From Polynucleobacter sp. 30F-ANTBAC (GTDB lineage Bacteria > Pseudomonadota > Gammaproteobacteria > Burkholderiales > Burkholderiaceae), in the NCBI RefSeq assembly GCF_018882385.1, contig NZ_JACVON010000001.1, forward strand, positions 108,942 through 172,941: a DNA stretch of 64,000 nt. Direction: 5' to 3'. The translations under genes and the position numbers were made by a program. The notes under the pieces are model-generated. The model was not told the DNA's origin and did not search any database. It was given only the letters and a program-made list of their open reading frames with translations. Positions 1,813 through 14,554 of this stretch are shown one piece after another (position 1 is the first letter of the stretch; the number at the start of each line of letters is the position of its first letter).

Positions 1813-3990
1813 TCAAAAATCAAAAGTTGCGGTGGCTCTGACGATTCGTGGCGCACCGGGATACAGCGTATTAGAACCATACGTCTGACTTACGTCACGC
1901 CAGTAAAACGTATTAAACAGATTCTCTACGCTCAAGCGATAGGTCGCTTGACTCGCACCCAATCGATCCATGTACTTAAGACCTACATCAAACTTATGGT
2001 AACCAGGAGCTTTAATACGATTGTCTAGCGTCACACCTTTGCTAGAGATATATGTCCAGCCACCTTGAACGCTGAGATTTTCAACCTGGGGTAGCAAGTA
2101 GTCTGCGAATACCACTGCTTTCCAATGGGGGATGCCAATGGCCTGCTTGCCATTTTGGGAGGTTTCTGATGCACCCGACTGCTTCGCTTCAAGATACATT
2201 GCGCTCGATAGCACGTTCAACCGATTGGTGGCTTTAAACGCTAAAGTAGCTTCAGCACCTGAATTGGTTACTTTGCCTTCTTGAACCAATATCGATCTGC
2301 CGTAGCCTACTGCTGGATCAAATTGGTAATCTGTTGCGTATTCATTGGGTCTTTCACTTTGGAAAATGGCAAAACTCAAGAGGGAATCAGAGTTGATTGC
2401 ATACTTGCTACCAAGCTCCATTTGTTCAGTTCTTCTTGGAGCCATCACTTGAGAATTTCTAAAGCTATCCGGCAATGCAATCGTTCCTGGTTCCACACCT
2501 TTGCTGTAGCTGACATAATTGGTGAGTTGGCTTGTTAGAGCATGACTCGCACCAATCTGTGGCAAATGCCATGTCTTATTAACTGATGAGTATGGGTCGC
2601 CGGTATAAACATCATAGGCAGCCTGTTTCATCTGAAGGAAACGATGCCCCAGAAACAATTTGGTTTTTTCAGTTAACTGGATTTGATCATGAACAAACAA
2701 ACTGGTTTGACGATGATCTAAGATTTTATAAACCGCACCTGTTGAAGCGGTACTAGGACTGATGTTGGCATTGAGGTTATCTATATCATCTTGTCCACGG
2801 TATTCATAAACAGACGCACCTTTGTAAACGGATCTCTTCAATTCTGATACGCCGAGAGTCCATTGATGCTTGATCTGTCCAGTGTTTGCTTGACCGGTTA
2901 AACCTGTTTGAACGTGATCATTACGCCTAACTTCGCCTTCACTTCTAAAGTCATAAACGTCAAATTCACCACCCGAGCAAAATGACCCGCTGGCACCAGA
3001 GCTATCAACGCTACAACCATAGGGGTAGGCCAATCGATCGTTGATTGTCACTTCACTACGATTGGCATTGGCAAATAACTTTAAGGAATCATTGATTTCA
3101 TGATCAAGGCGTAGGCCGATATTCTTTGACTTGATTTCGGTGGGTAAAACCCAGGGGTAGTGGGATAAATTAATGTCTGTTTTAACAGAGGGTAGCGTTG
3201 TGCCACCCAAAAGCATCAAACCAGGAACTGATTTTTGGCTTTTATCTTGGTACTCCAAATCAAACTGTACTAAAGTTTTGGAGCTGATCTTTGCATCAGC
3301 CGCCAAGCTAAAAAATTGCCGTTCACCTTTGGCATCTTTAATGTAAGGGCGAAGATTTTCATTGGCCGCATTGATGCGGATACCCAGTGATTTTGTTTCG
3401 CCTAAAAATGTGCCAAAGTCTGCCGCCACATATTGCGTACCTCTTTCACCGATCCCTAAGGTAAAGGATTGAACATCTTTCGGTCGTTTGGTGACGTAGT
3501 TGATGATGCCGCCAGGGGATGCGGCACCCGCTTGCATGGCACTCACACCCTTGAAGATTTCAAGGCGCTCTTTGTTTTCAAATGCGATGTTTTGCTCACC
3601 AGTCACAGACATCCCATTGATACGATAGCTGGTTGCGGCATCCAAGGGGAAGCCTCGGATGTAGAGATTTTCGTAGTAACCCATTGCCGCGTAATAGTCA
3701 CCAATGGATGCATCCAATCGAGCTGCCTCTGACATGACTCGCGCTTGGCGGTCATCCAGTAAATCTTTGGCAATCACAGTGATAGAGGCAGGGATATCTT
3801 TAAGTTCCACCTCCTCAGTGCCGCCTGGCCCACCAATCATGGCGCGTTTGGCGGCATAACCACTGCCTTTTTCACCGGTGACCACCACGGGTGCTAGTTG
3901 AGTATCAGTTTGGGCAGAGCTTTGTGAAGAAAATAGGAATAACCAAGCGCATGCGCTGGCGATGTAGTTCTTTTTTGGCCTATAAGCCAT
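1813..3990 (-). CDS. TonB-dependent outer-membrane receptor under TPP riboswitch control
   Basis: A 725-residue outer-membrane receptor. A signal peptide ends near residue 26, followed by the short APVVVTGEK TonB-box-like stretch. The plug domain (about 55-165) includes NLYIRGFP and GAASPGGIINYVTKRP, and the beta-barrel ends in Phe (ATATFDF). By sequence it belongs to the siderophore-receptor branch. However, its leader holds a clear TPP riboswitch, and the gene just upstream on the same strand belongs to a PnuC-type transport set. I therefore infer import of thiamine or a thiamine precursor rather than iron chelates. A good AAGGAG sits 7 nt before the ATG, inside a hairpin described separately. 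The 3' end converges with the GNAT gene. Confidence 0.9.
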   Translation of the reverse strand: MAYRPKKNYIASACAWLFLFSSQSSAQTDTQLAPVVVTGEKGSGYAAKRAMIGGPGGTEEVELKDIPASITVIAKDLLDDRQARVMSEAARLDASIGDYYAAMGYYENLYIRGFPLDAATSYRINGMSVTGEQNIAFENKERLEIFKGVSAMQAGAASPGGIINYVTKRPKDVQSFTLGIGERGTQYVAADFGTFLGETKSLGIRINAANENLRPYIKDAKGERQFFSLAADAKISSKTLVQFDLEYQDKSQKSVPGLMLLGGTTLPSVKTDINLSHYPWVLPTEIKSKNIGLRLDHEINDSLKLFANANRSEVTINDRLAYPYGCSVDSSGASGSFCSGGEFDVYDFRSEGEVRRNDHVQTGLTGQANTGQIKHQWTLGVSELKRSVYKGASVYEYRGQDDIDNLNANISPSTASTGAVYKILDHRQTSLFVHDQIQLTEKTKLFLGHRFLQMKQAAYDVYTGDPYSSVNKTWHLPQIGASHALTSQLTNYVSYSKGVEPGTIALPDSFRNSQVMAPRRTEQMELGSKYAINSDSLLSFAIFQSERPNEYATDYQFDPAVGYGRSILVQEGKVTNSGAEATLAFKATNRLNVLSSAMYLEAKQSGASETSQNGKQAIGIPHWKAVVFADYLLPQVENLSVQGGWTYISSKGVTLDNRIKAPGYHKFDVGLKYMDRLGASQATYRLSVENLFNTFYWRDVSQTYGSNTLYPGAPRIVRATATFDF

Positions 3991-4017
3991 CGTATAACTC
4001 CTTAAAGGAACGATGGC
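3986..4017 (-). promoter_or_regulatory. Ribosome-binding-site hairpin of the TonB receptor
   Basis: On the minus strand GCCATCG (4017-4011) is the exact complement of CGATGGC (3992-3986). The second arm contains the start codon and the 18-nt loop contains the Shine-Dalgarno AAGGAG (4003-3998). This is a likely expression platform that hides the start when the upstream TPP aptamer is bound. The pairing is seen directly; the regulatory role is inferred. Confidence 0.6.
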
Positions 4018-4036
4018 GAGTTGGGGATGCGGTTTT

Positions 4037-4127
4037 GACGCTTCCCTGCGCTCGCATTATCGAGATCAGGTTCAACGGGTATTTCTCACCCACATCTAAT
4101 GCCACCAGATGCAGGACCCCGAGCTAA
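4037..4127 (-). promoter_or_regulatory. TPP riboswitch (THI element)
   Basis: Reading the minus strand, the leader contains the conserved TPP aptamer blocks in order: CTCGGGGTCC, then GGGTGAGAAATACCC, then TTGAACCTGATCTCGATAA, then TGCGAGCGCAGGGAAGCG. These correspond to P2/P3 with the TGAGA pyrimidine sensor and to P4/P5 with ACCTGATC. It lies 47 nt upstream of the receptor start. TPP binding is expected to lower expression. Confidence 0.95.
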
Positions 4128-4151
4128 TATCTAAAACAACTAGATGAGATG

Positions 4152-4181
4152 ATTATAGGTATTTTTTAGGATTGCTGTTGA
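4152..4181 (-). promoter_or_regulatory. Candidate promoter for the riboswitch transcript
   Basis: On the minus strand a perfect -10 TATAAT (4157-4152) lies 18 nt downstream of TCAACA (4181-4176, four of six to TTGACA), within the 3' end of the kinase gene. It would start transcription about 20 nt before the aptamer and give the receptor its own mRNA. Confidence 0.5.
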
Positions 4182-4762
4182 CTAAGCCAATTTCCGACAA
4201 ATTCTTGGGCTTTTTGGGTGCGATCCCGGGTGGATCCTGAGATCTTTAAGTAAGGTATTTCTAGTTTTTGAAGTCGACTCTCGATGAGCTGATGAACCGC
4301 AGCTTGAATTTCGGGGCCATCGCGTTGCACACCATCACTGACCCAAGGCAAATCAATTTCAGTCAACAAGGTTAAATCGTAATCATTTAACTCGGCGATT
4401 TGATCAACTAGGGCATCAGCTTGCCCAAAAATAACTTCGCTATAGATGCTGGTTATCAGAGGCGTTGTGTCACAAAACAGCAGGGCGTGCGGAGCATGAC
4501 CGGTCAATGGTTTTATTGGATCATGGTTATCCTGCAGCAAAGCGTGACTCAAGCGAGCTTCATGAGCTTTCTGCTCACGTGCAATCAGCACTTGCTCTTC
4601 TGCCAGCGGTGTTCTTTGGTGGTGATCAACAAAAGACCTCAGGTACTCTGGCACCCAGTTACTGGGGTAGTGCTGAGAGAAGTGCTCTGCCAAGCCCTTC
4701 GCCAGTGTAGATTTACCCGTGCACTCCGCACCAAGGATGGCAATCTTAACTAGGCGTCGCAT
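4166..4762 (-). CDS. NadR-like P-loop kinase, probably for the vitamin imported by the PnuC-type partner
   Basis: A 198-residue ATPase with a Walker A motif near the N-terminus (GAECTGKST, residues about 11-19), then VPEYLRSFVD, a central FCDTTPL strand and a C-terminal SGSTRDRTQKA segment. This is the arrangement of the NadR-type ribosylnicotinamide kinase domain; the adenylyltransferase and HTH domains of NadR are absent. PnuC-family facilitators depend on a kinase to trap their substrate. Here the gene overlaps the transporter by one base and lies next to a TPP-riboswitch receptor, so a thiamine kinase role is plausible. It could instead be a nicotinamide riboside kinase. Substrate is inferred, not seen. 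Confidence 0.85.
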   Translation of the reverse strand: MRRLVKIAILGAECTGKSTLAKGLAEHFSQHYPSNWVPEYLRSFVDHHQRTPLAEEQVLIAREQKAHEARLSHALLQDNHDPIKPLTGHAPHALLFCDTTPLITSIYSEVIFGQADALVDQIAELNDYDLTLLTEIDLPWVSDGVQRDGPEIQAAVHQLIESRLQKLEIPYLKISGSTRDRTQKAQEFVGNWLSQQQS

Positions 4763-5340
4763 CAGTGCTTATCCGATTGCAACAGATCCTGCGCCATTAT
4801 TTTCTGAGACCATTGGCGCCAACCCCAAAAGCATAAAACAACAAAAAGACCATAAAGTCCTGCTGTTAGATACAGATCCATATAGATATACAAGGCAATG
4901 TAAATAGGATTAAGAATCATCCATAGTAACCAATTCTCAATCCATTTTTGAGCACTCATCAAGGTTGCCATAATGCTGCCTGCTGTAAGGAGGGCATCCG
5001 CGTTTGGAACAACGGAGCTGGTGTAGTTCACCAGTACAAACTTGATGGCGATAAACAATACCAACCAAGCAAGCAAACACACTGCGATCATTTTTTTAGG
5101 AGCATGCCCAAATTGTTTGGCGAGAGTGCCCGAATCCATTTTTCTTGTCCAGCACCACCAAGCATAAATGGCCAAACTGATAAAAATGAACTGTAGAGCA
5201 GCGTCTCCAAATAAACCGCTGTCATAAAACACCCAGGCGTAGGTTGCAGAACTGGCAATGGAAAAAGGCCAAGTTAAAACATGGCCTTTGGCATTCAAGC
5301 TCACGCAAACCAGGGCAAGAAAGAATGCTGCGATTTCCAT
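4762..5340 (-). CDS. PnuC-family vitamin transporter, probably thiamine type (PnuT)
   Basis: A 192-residue membrane protein with about seven hydrophobic helices. The family signature is visible in WPFSIASSATYAWVFYDSGL and in LAIYAWWCWTR, matching PnuC-type facilitators that move unphosphorylated vitamins (nicotinamide riboside in PnuC, thiamine in PnuT, riboflavin in PnuX). The protein alone does not settle the substrate. The kinase overlapping its end, the DUF4743/NUDIX gene 15 bp upstream, and the TPP riboswitch receptor downstream favour thiamine. Transport would be facilitated diffusion in the inner membrane, pulled by phosphorylation. Confidence 0.88.
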   Translation of the reverse strand: MEIAAFFLALVCVSLNAKGHVLTWPFSIASSATYAWVFYDSGLFGDAALQFIFISLAIYAWWCWTRKMDSGTLAKQFGHAPKKMIAVCLLAWLVLFIAIKFVLVNYTSSVVPNADALLTAGSIMATLMSAQKWIENWLLWMILNPIYIALYIYMDLYLTAGLYGLFVVLCFWGWRQWSQKIMAQDLLQSDKH

Positions 5341-5355
5341 GAGTGAGTAGGCTAA

Positions 5356-6171
5356 TTACGCTTTTCTTAAAAGGAATTCAGCGGTGACTGCAGCTGCGTC
5401 CGGTGTGAGTGCGCCTTCTAAGATCAAATTAGCGGCCTGCGTGAAAGGAACCTTTATAAACTCGGATACTTCACCGTCTTTATTCTGAGGCTCAAACTCT
5501 TCTGGCAACAGTAAGTCATAGGTATAAAGGCTCTCATCATGAAGCCCTTTAGGTTCGACGATCCGGCGCACGTGGATATGTCCTACCGGGTTAGCGAGTC
5601 TAGCAATCTCCAAAGGCGCGCCGGCTTCTTCCCATAACTCTCGAATAACAGATTGCTGCAGCGTTTCATCGGCACTGATACCGCCAGCTGCTAAGTTGTC
5701 GAGCATATTCGGATCAGTTGCTTTGATATTGCTACGCAGACCCAAGTAAATCTCTTGCTGAGACGTGTACCCATTAACGTGACAGGCGCGACTGTGAAAG
5801 CCGAGCGAACGGAACACGGCTCTTTCCATCCGAAAACGCTCATGACCCAAGGTGTCCAACCAAGAAAAATGCTCATTGCGCCAGCCTGGGGCTAAGTTAT
5901 TTTTCTTCAAGAACTCCGCTAAATCTTGGAGCAATTGGCTCAATAAAAATGGGGGAAGGTTCTCTAATTGCAAATGATCGCCAAAACGAGCCAAGGCAGG
6001 AGTTTCTGCTTGCTCGATATAAGCATCTATGGTGGGCACATAGCTGGGCTGAATATGGCCAATAATCTCGCTTCCAAAGCGGATCTGTAACCAATGGTCT
6101 GGTGCAGGACGAAGGGCCGTTTCTAGAAGCTCTTCGAGTGCAGCGCGAGTTGTAGCGGAAATAAGTGACAT
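5356..6171 (-). CDS. DUF4743/NUDIX hydrolase, likely acting on thiamine diphosphate-type substrates
   Basis: A 271-residue protein with an N-terminal DUF4743 region (about 1-110) and a NUDIX domain. The NUDIX box runs from GGISADETLQQSVIRELWEE (residues about 163-182, GX5EX7REXXEE core). This two-domain form is known from the hydrolase part of yeast thiamine pyrophosphokinase Tnr3 and its relatives, which remove phosphate from thiamine diphosphate and damaged forms of it. It is the first gene of the minus-strand set with the PnuC-type transporter and the kinase. A salvage step between TPP and thiamine monophosphate is therefore inferred. No riboswitch is seen upstream of this gene. Confidence 0.88.
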   Translation of the reverse strand: MSLISATTRAALEELLETALRPAPDHWLQIRFGSEIIGHIQPSYVPTIDAYIEQAETPALARFGDHLQLENLPPFLLSQLLQDLAEFLKKNNLAPGWRNEHFSWLDTLGHERFRMERAVFRSLGFHSRACHVNGYTSQQEIYLGLRSNIKATDPNMLDNLAAGGISADETLQQSVIRELWEEAGAPLEIARLANPVGHIHVRRIVEPKGLHDESLYTYDLLLPEEFEPQNKDGEVSEFIKVPFTQAANLILEGALTPDAAAVTAEFLLRKA

Positions 6172-6250: not shown

Positions 6251-6688
6251 ATGTCTAACGAGCCCCAGAATACTGAAATTGACGACTTTGAGCCCTTGAT
6301 TCAGGCGGGGCATGTCATTTGCTCCTCCGGTAGCGTTGAGGATCTGGGTGATGGTTTTCGTTTCATGGTTAGAAGCTCCGATATAGCATCCCAAGTCCAT
6401 GGTATTGATCATCGGGTGGATGCTACTTTGCCTGCATTTTTAATTCGCCATGATGGCCAAGTTCATGCGTATCTGAATCGATGTGCTCATGTAGCTATGG
6501 AACTCGATTGGCAACCAGGTCAATTTTTGACACAGGATAAATCCGCCATCATTTGTGCTTCCCATGATGCGCAATATTTACCCGATACAGGGGAGTGCAT
6601 TTCTGGACCTTGTCCTCGTGGTGCAAGATTAATCAAGTTGGATATTGAAGAAAAAGAAGGTCAGATTTTTCTGTGTCAAGCGGTTTGA
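6251..6688 (+). CDS. Rieske [2Fe-2S] domain protein
   Basis: A 145-residue soluble protein carrying one Rieske domain. The cluster ligands are visible as Cys-Ala-His in NRCAHVAMELDW and Cys-x-x-His in IICASHDAQYLPDTGECISGP, about 40 residues apart. There is no signal peptide or membrane helix, so it is likely cytoplasmic, either a ferredoxin-type electron carrier or a stand-alone Rieske protein. No oxygenase catalytic subunit is adjacent. It is divergent from the NUDIX gene with 79 bp between them. Confidence 0.9.
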   Translation: MSNEPQNTEIDDFEPLIQAGHVICSSGSVEDLGDGFRFMVRSSDIASQVHGIDHRVDATLPAFLIRHDGQVHAYLNRCAHVAMELDWQPGQFLTQDKSAIICASHDAQYLPDTGECISGPCPRGARLIKLDIEEKEGQIFLCQAV

Positions 6689-6901: not shown

Positions 6902-7186
6902 ATGGCACCTGATTTTATTTTTAATTTAGATTTCCAAACAGCGCTGGGATATTTCGCGGCAACGCTTACCACACTCTCATTTTTGCCTCAGGTTATTCGT
7001 GTTTATCGAACAAAAAATACAGATGCCATTTCTTTTTGGATGTATTTGCTATTCAGTGCAGGAGTATTTTTTTGGTTCATTTATGGCGTCATGATTCAAG
7101 CTTGGCCAGTCGTGGTAGCCAATGCGATTACACTAGTGCTATCTCTTTCGATTCTCTGGATGAAAATCAATGAACAATCTCGTTAA
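6902..7186 (+). CDS. SemiSWEET sugar transporter (PQ-loop)
   Basis: A 94-residue protein with three membrane helices, the size of bacterial SemiSWEETs that dimerise to form one sugar pore. The PQ motif is visible in LTTLSFLPQVIRVYRTKNTD, followed by the Trp/Phe-rich second helix (FSAGVFFWFIYGV) and the Asn in VVANAITLVLSL typical of the substrate site. ATG at 6902 has no clear Shine-Dalgarno. The gene overlaps the start of the following lipoprotein by 17 nt, which suggests coupled expression. Confidence 0.92.
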   Translation: MAPDFIFNLDFQTALGYFAATLTTLSFLPQVIRVYRTKNTDAISFWMYLLFSAGVFFWFIYGVMIQAWPVVVANAITLVLSLSILWMKINEQSR

Positions 7187-11863: not shown

Positions 11864-14554
11864 ATGAAAAATAAAAAATTAAGATCCATTTTCAAATTCA
11901 GCCCAATTTTTTTGGCGATATCAACTCTAAATATGCCTCTAGCAGTGCATGCAGCTGACTTTACTAACGGTGGGTTTGAGGCTGGAGATACATCAGGCTG
12001 GACGGTAACTGGCGGCACATGGAATGGAACTCCGATAGCTCCATTAGATCCAGCCACATACACGGGCGTTGGGGGTGTTAGCGCGGTAGTGACAACATCC
12101 ACCCCAGATTCATATATCGCTCAATATAATTCCTTAAATAGCACAACAATTTCCCCAGTATTTGATGGTTCAAGTGCAGTTAGGATTAATGACGATAACA
12201 ACAATACAAGCGTTACAGTTATCAGCCAAACTGTAACGGGATACGTCGGTAACAAAATTTATATTGCTTGGCTAGCCGTGCTTGAGGGATCACACGATGT
12301 TACGGATTCAGATCACTTTGTTATTAAGGTGCGTGACAACACAACAAATACGGACGTTCAAACAATTTCCTATAGCTCTGCAAATACTGCAGGATTTTTT
12401 ACAGATGTGGGTGGTGGTATCTACGTATCTGGATGGCAAGCTCAAGCCATCGATGTGACTCAAGGAAATGACTTTACGATTTCTTTGTTAGCAGCAGACT
12501 GTCCTTATGGTGGTCACTGGGGCTATGTATATCTTGACTTTGCTGGATCTGTTGCTCCTGCTGGACTTACCATTACATCTGGTCAACCTGGTGCCACTCC
12601 CAATATTGTCGCGGCTGGTAATGTGAGCGGTGGTAGCGGTGTCAATTTAATTTCAACACAAAACAACGGAGCGAGTCCGAACTATTACAACGTATTTGAT
12701 GGCGGCACTTTATCCATTGATACAACAGGTCAGACTTACTCTGGAGATTTCTCAATCACCTCGAACGGTGCTCTCATTGATCAAAATGGTAATGCAGTCA
12801 CTTTATCTGGAGTATTTTCTGATAACGCCTCTGATGTTGGCAGCTTACAAATTATTAATACAGGATCTGGAGGCGCAGTTACTCTAACAGGCGTTAATCT
12901 GTATACAGGCTCTACAACAATTGATAGTGGAGCAACCCTCATAATTTCTAGTGCTGGTGTTTTAGGTGCGGGAGATTACGCAGGTAACATCTCAAATTCA
13001 GGAACGTTGACTTATAACTCGACGGCTAATCAAGTTTTTAGTGGAATTGTGAGTGGAGATGGAGTTTTAAATAAATCCTCTACAAGTACTCTGACACTTA
13101 ATGGCGTCAACACATTCTCAGGTACAACAAACCTAACTGACGGTACATTACTAGTTGGTAGTTCTGCAAATAATTCAACAGCTAGATTGTTGGGAACTGT
13201 CATTATTGGTACGAGTGGTACCTTAGCAGGTTATGGTACGGTCGGTAGTTCAGCAACGACATTAATAAATAACGGAACAGTTTCACCTGGTAACAATTCT
13301 GTGGCAGTTCTCAATATTGGGGGCGCTTATACTCAAGCCGCATCTGGCAATCTCAGTTTGGACTTGACGCCGACTACTAATGATCAGCTAGCAGTTGTAG
13401 GCGCTGCCAATTTAGATGGATCGGTAACAGTTAATGGTAGTTCTGGAACTTACTCTCCTACAAGATATACGCTACTGACATCCAGTGGTAGAGCTGGTAC
13501 TTTTTCTACGCTAAATAGTGACTTGAGTAGCTACACATCCTTGGGATATTTTATAAGCTACGATACAAATAACGTTTATTTAACTCTAGGTCCAGATTCA
13601 GTAAATACAACTCTGGGATTGTCCGCAATTCATGATCAGCTAAAGAGTATTTTTGCTGCCAAGAATGAAAGCTTGTTATCAGGATTAAGCTACGACTGTA
13701 ATTTGTTTGGTGAAAATAATATTTGTCTAAGTACCGGTGGTCGCTTAACTTATACAAGTAGCTCGACAGATAAGTTGGATGACAATAGACCTAGTAATGC
13801 CTCAGCTCTTCTAATAGGGGCCTATAGAGCAGATAAAGATCTTCGAATTGGAGCATGGATTGACCAAGATCTTTATACGCAAAATAAAAATATTCGAATC
13901 TCGAATTCAAATCCAATGATCGGCTTATTTGGTGTTTATTATCCGTCCGGTAACAGCACAGGATTACAAGCTAAAGCTTCCTTGTCTTACGTGGATAAAA
14001 AAGTAGAAATAACTAGAGACCAACTTGCTAATACTGAGCCTGGTCAGGGTTCTACTAAATTCAAAGGTTTTGGAGCTCAATTTGAGCTTGCTTACGGATT
14101 GGATGATGTCATATCCGAATCTGTTTTGTCTCCATTTATTGGTGTGAGAAATTACGATAGTTCTACTGGGGCTTATAGCGAAGTTTCTAGTGCTACTGTA
14201 CAAGTGCCGGTTAATTACTCTAAGTATTCCCAGAGAGCTTCAATGGTATTTTCAGGTCTAAAGCTTGAGGGAAAGTTATCTAAAGAATTGACTTATAACG
14301 TTTCTGGCGGGCTTGAAAAAGATACTAATGCGAATAACCCAAGCTATGCTGGCACAAGTAATATTTATGGATTAAGCAGCTTCAACCTTAACAGCCAATC
14401 TAATCAACGTGAATCGAGAATGTTTGCCAATGTTGGGACAACTTACTTACTTGATAAAAATGAAACCTTGAGTCTAGGCGTTTCGTTTAGAGAAGATAGA
14501 TTTAAGGGGACAAGTTTAGTTTCAGGGATGCTTACTTATACAATTGGTTTGTAA
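11864..14554 (+). CDS. Autotransporter with passenger repeats and C-terminal beta-barrel
   Basis: An 896-residue type Va autotransporter. The signal peptide ends at VHAA near residue 30. The passenger opens with a Gly/Trp-rich beta domain (NGGFEAGDTSGWTVTGG), then carries autotransporter-associated beta-strand repeats (YTGSTTIDSGATLII, FSGTTNLTDGTLLVG, SSGTLAGYGTVG-like) typical of a right-handed beta-helix. The C-terminal 260-280 residues form the translocator barrel, ending in a hydrophobic beta strand (LVSGMLTYTIGL). An adhesin or surface-coat role is likely. No protease or other catalytic motif is evident. The codons are AT-richer than in the core genes, in keeping with the proposed integrated element. 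Confidence 0.9.
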   Translation: MKNKKLRSIFKFSPIFLAISTLNMPLAVHAADFTNGGFEAGDTSGWTVTGGTWNGTPIAPLDPATYTGVGGVSAVVTTSTPDSYIAQYNSLNSTTISPVFDGSSAVRINDDNNNTSVTVISQTVTGYVGNKIYIAWLAVLEGSHDVTDSDHFVIKVRDNTTNTDVQTISYSSANTAGFFTDVGGGIYVSGWQAQAIDVTQGNDFTISLLAADCPYGGHWGYVYLDFAGSVAPAGLTITSGQPGATPNIVAAGNVSGGSGVNLISTQNNGASPNYYNVFDGGTLSIDTTGQTYSGDFSITSNGALIDQNGNAVTLSGVFSDNASDVGSLQIINTGSGGAVTLTGVNLYTGSTTIDSGATLIISSAGVLGAGDYAGNISNSGTLTYNSTANQVFSGIVSGDGVLNKSSTSTLTLNGVNTFSGTTNLTDGTLLVGSSANNSTARLLGTVIIGTSGTLAGYGTVGSSATTLINNGTVSPGNNSVAVLNIGGAYTQAASGNLSLDLTPTTNDQLAVVGAANLDGSVTVNGSSGTYSPTRYTLLTSSGRAGTFSTLNSDLSSYTSLGYFISYDTNNVYLTLGPDSVNTTLGLSAIHDQLKSIFAAKNESLLSGLSYDCNLFGENNICLSTGGRLTYTSSSTDKLDDNRPSNASALLIGAYRADKDLRIGAWIDQDLYTQNKNIRISNSNPMIGLFGVYYPSGNSTGLQAKASLSYVDKKVEITRDQLANTEPGQGSTKFKGFGAQFELAYGLDDVISESVLSPFIGVRNYDSSTGAYSEVSSATVQVPVNYSKYSQRASMVFSGLKLEGKLSKELTYNVSGGLEKDTNANNPSYAGTSNIYGLSSFNLNSQSNQRESRMFANVGTTYLLDKNETLSLGVSFREDRFKGTSLVSGMLTYTIGL

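Follow-up and report, generated by a model that had tools for sequence, protein, structure and literature searches.

A NadR-related kinase beside a TPP riboswitch in Polynucleobacter as a candidate thiamine kinase

Organization of the locus

We analyzed a stretch of 64,000 nucleotides (the window) from Polynucleobacter sp. 30F-ANTBAC (assembly GCF_018882385.1, contig NZ_JACVON010000001.1, positions 108,942–172,941), in which a NadR-like P-loop kinase is encoded within a putative thiamine uptake locus carrying a thiamine pyrophosphate (TPP) riboswitch. On the minus strand, the order of transcription is NUDIX hydrolase, PnuC-family transporter, NadR-like kinase, TPP aptamer and TonB-dependent outer-membrane receptor (Table 1). 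Profile matches confirmed the four genes named in a preliminary description of this DNA, and the receptor gene falls beyond positions 4037–6171, the range to which that description had confined the cluster. The NUDIX and transporter genes are separated by 15 bases, and the transporter stop codon and the kinase start codon overlap by one base (TGATG). This spacing is tight enough that the three genes could form a single operon.

As described earlier, a TPP aptamer is present and stands before the receptor gene, but the kinase gene is not behind it. The aptamer is located downstream of the kinase gene and follows a promoter-like site with a TATAAT that is conserved across four Polynucleobacter loci; such sites are not in excess in the whole region (3 found, 3.6 expected in shuffles). 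Between aptamer and receptor, the segment 3976–4020 folds with −15.2 kcal/mol (z −3.22) and pairs the Shine-Dalgarno sequence and start codon of the receptor gene, and the outer stem of this hairpin is conserved in the four Polynucleobacter loci. The folded leader gave no aptamer shape that could be matched to the TPP family, so that the aptamer call is that of Rfam and the hairpin call that of the short fold. Because the aptamer lies downstream of the kinase gene and behind its own promoter-like site, the riboswitch most likely governs only translation of the receptor in this genome, and we rejected riboswitch control of the kinase here. An Rfam RF00059 search found no second TPP riboswitch in the host genome.

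Table 1. Features of the locus and of its surroundings in the window
Feature	Positions	Strand	Evidence
TonB-dependent outer-membrane receptor	1813–3990	−	PF00593 and PF07715 above cut-off
Hairpin over receptor Shine-Dalgarno sequence and start codon, likely expression platform	3986–4017	−	fold of 3976–4020
TPP riboswitch aptamer (RF00059)	4026–4131	−	65.3 bits (gathering 54.3), E 1.4e-10
Promoter-like site TCAACA-18-TATAAT at the kinase gene end, ahead of the aptamer	4152–4181	−	10/12 consensus matches
NadR-like P-loop kinase, 198 aa, putative thiamine kinase	4166–4762	−	PF13521, 103.7 bits (cut-off 27)
PnuC-family transporter, assigned as PnuT-like (thiamine)	4762–5340	−	PF04973, 152.5 bits (cut-off 27.3)
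NUDIX hydrolase, 271 aa	5356–6171	−	Pfam NUDIX, 42.9 bits (cut-off 21.1)
Rieske-type small protein	6251–6688	+	
SemiSWEET transporter	6902–7186	+	NF037968, 109.6 bits (cut-off 80)
Large autotransporter-like protein with beta-barrel-like end	11864–14554	+	translation read by eye

Thiamine genes in the host and in other Burkholderiales

In the host genome (1.96 Mb, 99.99% complete), no match was found for ThiC, ThiE, thiamine pyrophosphokinase (TPK) or ThiK, and ThiL was present (309 bits, cut-off 184). The preliminary description had suggested looking for thi biosynthesis genes, and this gene content agrees with its proposal. Since ThiL is kept and ThiE, TPK and ThiK have no match, the supply of thiamine monophosphate must depend on a kinase or on import. 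With ThiL and without ThiE, TPP can be made from free thiamine only if thiamine is phosphorylated once, a step for which the kinase encoded in the uptake cluster is the evident candidate.

We used a sample of 200 genomes of the order, 32 of which have a kinase homolog; this sample is less biased than the named loci described below. The riboswitch, ThiC, ThiE, TPK, ThiL, ThiK and PnuC were searched for in these 32 genomes and in three relatives lacking the kinase. A TPP riboswitch was located within 5 kb of the kinase in 12 of the 32 genomes, with 0.15 such kinases expected by chance. Ten of the 32 have no ThiE; all ten also lack ThiC, each has a single riboswitch, and all are among the twelve genomes with linked kinase and riboswitch (Fisher one-sided 1e-6 over 32 genomes, kinship ignored). 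The ten belong to five family codes (f1, f9, f17, f22 and f37), and the other two linked genomes retain ThiC and ThiE. One further genome, G087, has ThiE and no ThiC; its kinase is not near its riboswitch and lies outside the kinase set defined below. Two same-genus relatives of the host, G030 and G074, have ThiC, ThiE and one TPP riboswitch just upstream of thiC (the ThiE match of G030 being slightly under the curated cut-off), and neither has a kinase or PnuC-family match. Thus, the genus appears to be divided between making and scavenging thiamine.

ThiK (TIGR02721) was above the cut-off in none of the 35 genomes, by a narrow model that exceeded its cut-off in 1 of 14 control genomes; matches below the cut-off were seen in ten of the 35, the host not among them. 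TPK was likewise found in none of the 35. The latter result would fit an alternative in which the kinase is itself a thiamine pyrophosphokinase that produces TPP directly in place of TPK. However, ThiL, which was above the cut-off in 34 of the 35 genomes and needs thiamine monophosphate, is retained in nine of the ten ThiE-less genomes, and NadR-type kinases transfer one phosphate. We consider this alternative extremely unlikely.

It could also be that the cell imports thiamine phosphates, a precursor or an analog, and that this compound, such as hydroxyethylthiazole or hydroxymethylpyrimidine (HMP), is the kinase substrate instead of thiamine. Precursor uptake genes are among the targets of TPP riboswitches, and ThiBPQ can transport thiamine phosphates, both of which would be consistent with this explanation. 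However, precursors can be salvaged only with ThiE, which the ten genomes lack, and imported thiamine monophosphate would require no kinase besides ThiL, which makes such a substrate very improbable. The thi gene content, together with the riboswitch survey below, supports the earlier proposal that the NadR-like protein is a thiamine kinase, and we regard it as very likely that it is a further, non-orthologous enzyme of this kind, converting thiamine to thiamine monophosphate.

The kinase group and its genomic neighborhoods

The window protein shares with the NadR kinase domain (TIGR01526, PF13521; PDB 1lw7, 8x7f and 6gyf) the P-loop fold, the Walker A Lys, the Walker B Asp and the lid Arg. 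Unlike NadR, it consists of the kinase domain only and has no adenylyltransferase domain, and its TIGR01526 score is far under the cut-off (66 versus 341 bits). An AlphaFold2 model (pLDDT 92.4) matched NadR best (Z 19.2–21.3), followed by thymidylate kinases (Z ~16–17). The modeled structure is that of a kinase of NadR fold and is silent on the substrate.

We built a tree of 154 kinase domains by a quick method, using the order sample, named loci and a phylum-wide sample. The named loci were the best 80 of 551 confirmed ones, found with patterns derived from a single source, A1, and do not provide an unbiased rate; among these 80, the nearest kinases were from Polynucleobacter meluiroseus. The order sample provided 36 kinase genes from 38 match rows (split matches of two genes were merged), of which G142:C1 and G174:C2 were left out of the tree and kept in the distance count. 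All 59 riboswitch-linked kinases fell in one set of 101 rows, almost all from Burkholderiales-type genomes (SH-aLRT 94, slightly below the starred support level of the tree). Duplicate rows were kept (L036/L076 and L039/L137 are the same loci), and the 59 linked rows correspond to 58 distinct loci. The 53 rows outside the set comprise 20 labeled NadR and 33 others, the label being set by a nucleotidyl-transferase motif in the frame before the kinase, checked with Pfam for L049, L059 and L061. Our own model detected no TPP riboswitch in the fetched stretches of these 53, 20 of which were repeated with Rfam. The co-occurrence of kinase and TPP riboswitch that the preliminary description had proposed to survey was thus found, and confined to this set. 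NadR proper lies outside the 101.

Leu41 and Gln57 (window numbering) are invariant in the 101 members. Position 41, in an E-x-G-R stretch, is Gly in all 20 NadR rows, and position 57 is mostly Leu, Phe or Tyr in them. Pro52 and Trp140 are also invariant in the set and not outside it; they separate the groups less well than Leu41, being found in 4 and 6 of the 20 NadR rows, respectively. In addition, a lid insert of one residue (Gln146 in the window kinase) is missing from 47 of the 53 kinases outside the set.

A TPP riboswitch was present in the fetched stretch in 47 of the 80 named loci, and in 41 of the 59 named loci flanked by long sequence on each side; that of L108 is cut by a contig end. 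Several arrangements were seen among the 59 linked rows. Riboswitch, receptor, PnuT and kinase follow each other in one direction in 16 rows (15 distinct loci), and nine rows have the gene order of the window, including that of G195, in which the PnuC-family gene is on another contig. In 29 rows, a PnuT-kinase pair faces the riboswitch and receptor on the opposite strand. The remaining arrangement to be noted, kinase followed by riboswitch and a ThiB-type binding protein with no PnuC in the stretch, occurs in five Rhodoferax-type loci (L091, L106, L110, L117 and L124), in all of which the riboswitch is above the Rfam cut-off. Their binding protein scored 288–315 bits with TIGR01254 (cut-off 93) in the four loci scanned, and that of L117 was found by tblastn. 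In L110, the only locus scanned further, the next two genes encode a permease of the ATP-binding cassette (ABC) type, closest to ThiP, and an ABC ATPase. PnuC and the ABC importer are unrelated and have the TPP riboswitch and annotated thiamine in common; thus, the constant partner of the kinase appears to be thiamine, not PnuC.

These neighborhoods bear on the possibility that the protein is an ordinary nicotinamide riboside kinase served by a nicotinamide riboside-importing PnuC, with the riboswitch acting on the receptor only and the neighborhood accidental. The NadR kinase domain is indeed closest in sequence and fold, the transporter passes the NCBI PnuC model, and in the window the riboswitch leads the receptor alone. 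However, accident would have to account for a riboswitch beside the kinase in 58 distinct loci, all of one set, against none of the 53 outside rows, and for the one-directional operons in 15 distinct loci. The NadR glycine is replaced by Leu, and a nicotinamide riboside kinase would leave the ThiE-less genomes without a known source of thiamine monophosphate. The strongest argument against it, judged from the gene neighborhoods, is provided by the five loci in which a ThiB-type importer is present and PnuC is missing from the stretch. We therefore consider a nicotinamide riboside kinase improbable.

The phylum-wide sample comprised 397 genomes with 75 matches, of which 40 regions were fetched (some second matches being left out), 8 in the kinase set and 32 outside. 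None of the 40 had a riboswitch (our own model; 28 of the 40 repeated with Rfam). Within the set, a Comamonadaceae-type subgroup of PnuC-kinase pairs (L152–L158, L142 and L043) also has no riboswitch in the stretch. The preliminary description had named regular occurrence beside NAD genes without TPP riboswitches as evidence against its proposal. This pattern was not seen in the neighborhoods inspected. In the riboswitch-less subgroup, pyrG and other housekeeping genes are conserved neighbors; those recognized by eye in the translations were pyrG, kdsA and eno.

The transporter of the window is the only PnuC-family match of the genome. In a transporter tree, 88 transporters linked to kinases of the set grouped in a 90-row set with two intruders. 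Related transporters are found directly inside riboswitch-led operons, whereas in the window the riboswitch is downstream. As its relatives are linked in the genome to TPP riboswitches and genes for thiamine, we assigned the transporter as PnuT-like, in the thiamine branch of the family. Candidate substrate residues were set aside as too weak, as the differences from NadR-linked PnuC were modest. The receptor, judged by its position, appears to be omr1/OMthi-like, and its homologs stand behind TPP riboswitches in related loci.

Proposed route and its relation to known systems

Taken together, the locus would be the import-and-trap system of a thiamine auxotroph. Thiamine would cross the outer membrane through the TonB receptor and the inner membrane through the PnuT-type transporter, after which the NadR-like kinase would trap it as thiamine monophosphate and ThiL, encoded elsewhere in the genome, would convert this to TPP. 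TPP would in turn close the riboswitch, and the hairpin hiding the ribosome-binding site and start codon would lower receptor synthesis. The kinase group would have switched from nicotinamide riboside to thiamine, and it would replace ThiK and TPK. Gene content, the riboswitch, gene order, co-occurrence, the tree, conserved residues and the predicted fold are direct results of the analysis; what each protein acts on, the auxotrophic phenotype, the way in which control runs and the function of the NUDIX protein are inferred from them. More generally, it is likely that this NadR-related group is a non-orthologous thiamine kinase family that fills the step from thiamine to thiamine monophosphate in the absence of ThiK and TPK, and that it serves both auxotrophs with PnuT and ThiL and salvaging prototrophs, some of them Rhodoferax-type with a ThiB-type importer.

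It should be noted, however, that several observations weigh against a thiamine kinase. In the window, the aptamer is downstream of the kinase gene, which is therefore not riboswitch-led. The transporter passes the NCBI model for nicotinamide riboside transporters (PnuC, 64.5 bits, cut-off 42.45), the receptor passes that for siderophore receptors (TIGR01783, 294.9 bits, cut-off 223.5), and the support of the transporter set is only 76. In the kinase set, no riboswitch was seen in the stretch fetched for 42 of the 101 members: 3 from the order sample, 8 from the phylum-wide sample and 31 named loci (14 with short contigs, 17 with long flanks). One of these unlinked members, G194, has a second riboswitch before a receptor homolog elsewhere in its genome. 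The ThiC and ThiE test covers the 32 genomes with a kinase homolog and three relatives, so that ThiE-less genomes among the 168 of the order without the kinase would have escaped it, and the genomes of the five importer loci are outside the sample. Among the ten ThiE-less genomes, G183 (98% complete) has no ThiL match, and five have weak ThiK matches (19–34 bits versus 299), so that a diverged ThiK-like enzyme is possible in some of them. Finally, the binding proteins of the importer loci did not pass the stricter ThiB model, and the L110 permease and ATPase are under the ThiP and ThiQ cut-offs. The narrow ThiK model and the ABC-importer matches below the cut-offs lowered our confidence in the assignment.

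Parts of the route have precedents. PnuC genes behind TPP riboswitches are already known, as excerpts of PMC2258182 and PMC5301498 indicate, as are riboswitch-receptor-PnuT operons (PMC5613172, in excerpt). The latter source describes, in the part available, omr1-pnuT-tnr3 thiamine operons of Bacteroidetes, in which the phosphorylating partner is tnr3, named thiamine pyrophosphorylase. The present loci resemble these operons in the TPP riboswitch, TonB receptor, PnuT and adjoining phosphorylating enzyme, and differ in having a NadR-like kinase here and ThiL elsewhere in place of tnr3. With E. coli ThiK (YcfN), the window kinase would share the proposed reaction, thiamine to thiamine monophosphate, but it belongs to a different family by model. 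From NadR, the kinase set differs in being tied to TPP riboswitches (59 of 101 members), besides Leu41, Gln57 and the lid insert. We recognized no NadR-like kinase assigned to thiamine among the papers listed from the open-license literature, a scope that excludes subscription papers and prediction databases. SEED and RegPrecise-type prediction resources reportedly list PnuC-linked NadR homologs, and an earlier prediction of such a thiamine kinase in them is possible. The locus combines a known uptake module with a kinase from a family not known to act on thiamine, for which thiamine is very probably a new substrate.

The NUDIX protein was considered as a core part of the system and rejected, as its gene adjoins the kinase gene only in the window and in three Polynucleobacter loci of the 80 named ones (the best of 551). 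No NUDIX match was found in 37 fetched kinase regions, in a first search step without a profile step. Its description as a DUF4743/NUDIX protein of the thiamine pathway held for the NUDIX domain, but DUF4743 did not reach the cut-off (15.3 versus 25 bits; 22.6 bits in its relative L074). Tnr3-type NUDIX proteins, which are cited or tabulated in the available parts of PMC4921024 and PMC5389931, have in common with it the NUDIX domain and a weak DUF4743-like N-terminal part; unlike them, it is not fused to TPK. Its nearest solved relative is 3dup, a Rhodospirillum rubrum NUDIX protein (phmmer E 1.8e-25), whose activity is tabulated as undetermined in PMC5389931, as far as the excerpt goes. The gene might be a Polynucleobacter-only addition to the uptake set, and the distant resemblance tentatively suggests that its product may hydrolyze or trim TPP or oxidized (damaged) TPP.

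Three neighboring plus-strand genes may be mentioned. The Rieske-type gene and the NUDIX gene point away from each other, and the Rieske-type gene keeps its position in all three named Polynucleobacter loci (L072–L074). Next to the cluster, at a distance of one gene, stands a SemiSWEET transporter gene; PnuC itself is a SWEET homolog, and two members of this superfamily are thus close together in the window. The autotransporter-like gene is located farther away.

If the proposed activity is correct, it would explain how ThiE-less betaproteobacteria with ThiL obtain the substrate of ThiL. The NCBI models class the transporter with nicotinamide riboside carriers and the receptor with siderophore receptors, and the kinase would be expected to be annotated as NadR-like; vitamin B1 scavengers would be misread in this way. 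Such a kinase would also illustrate clearly how a kinase domain and a transporter can change vitamin together.

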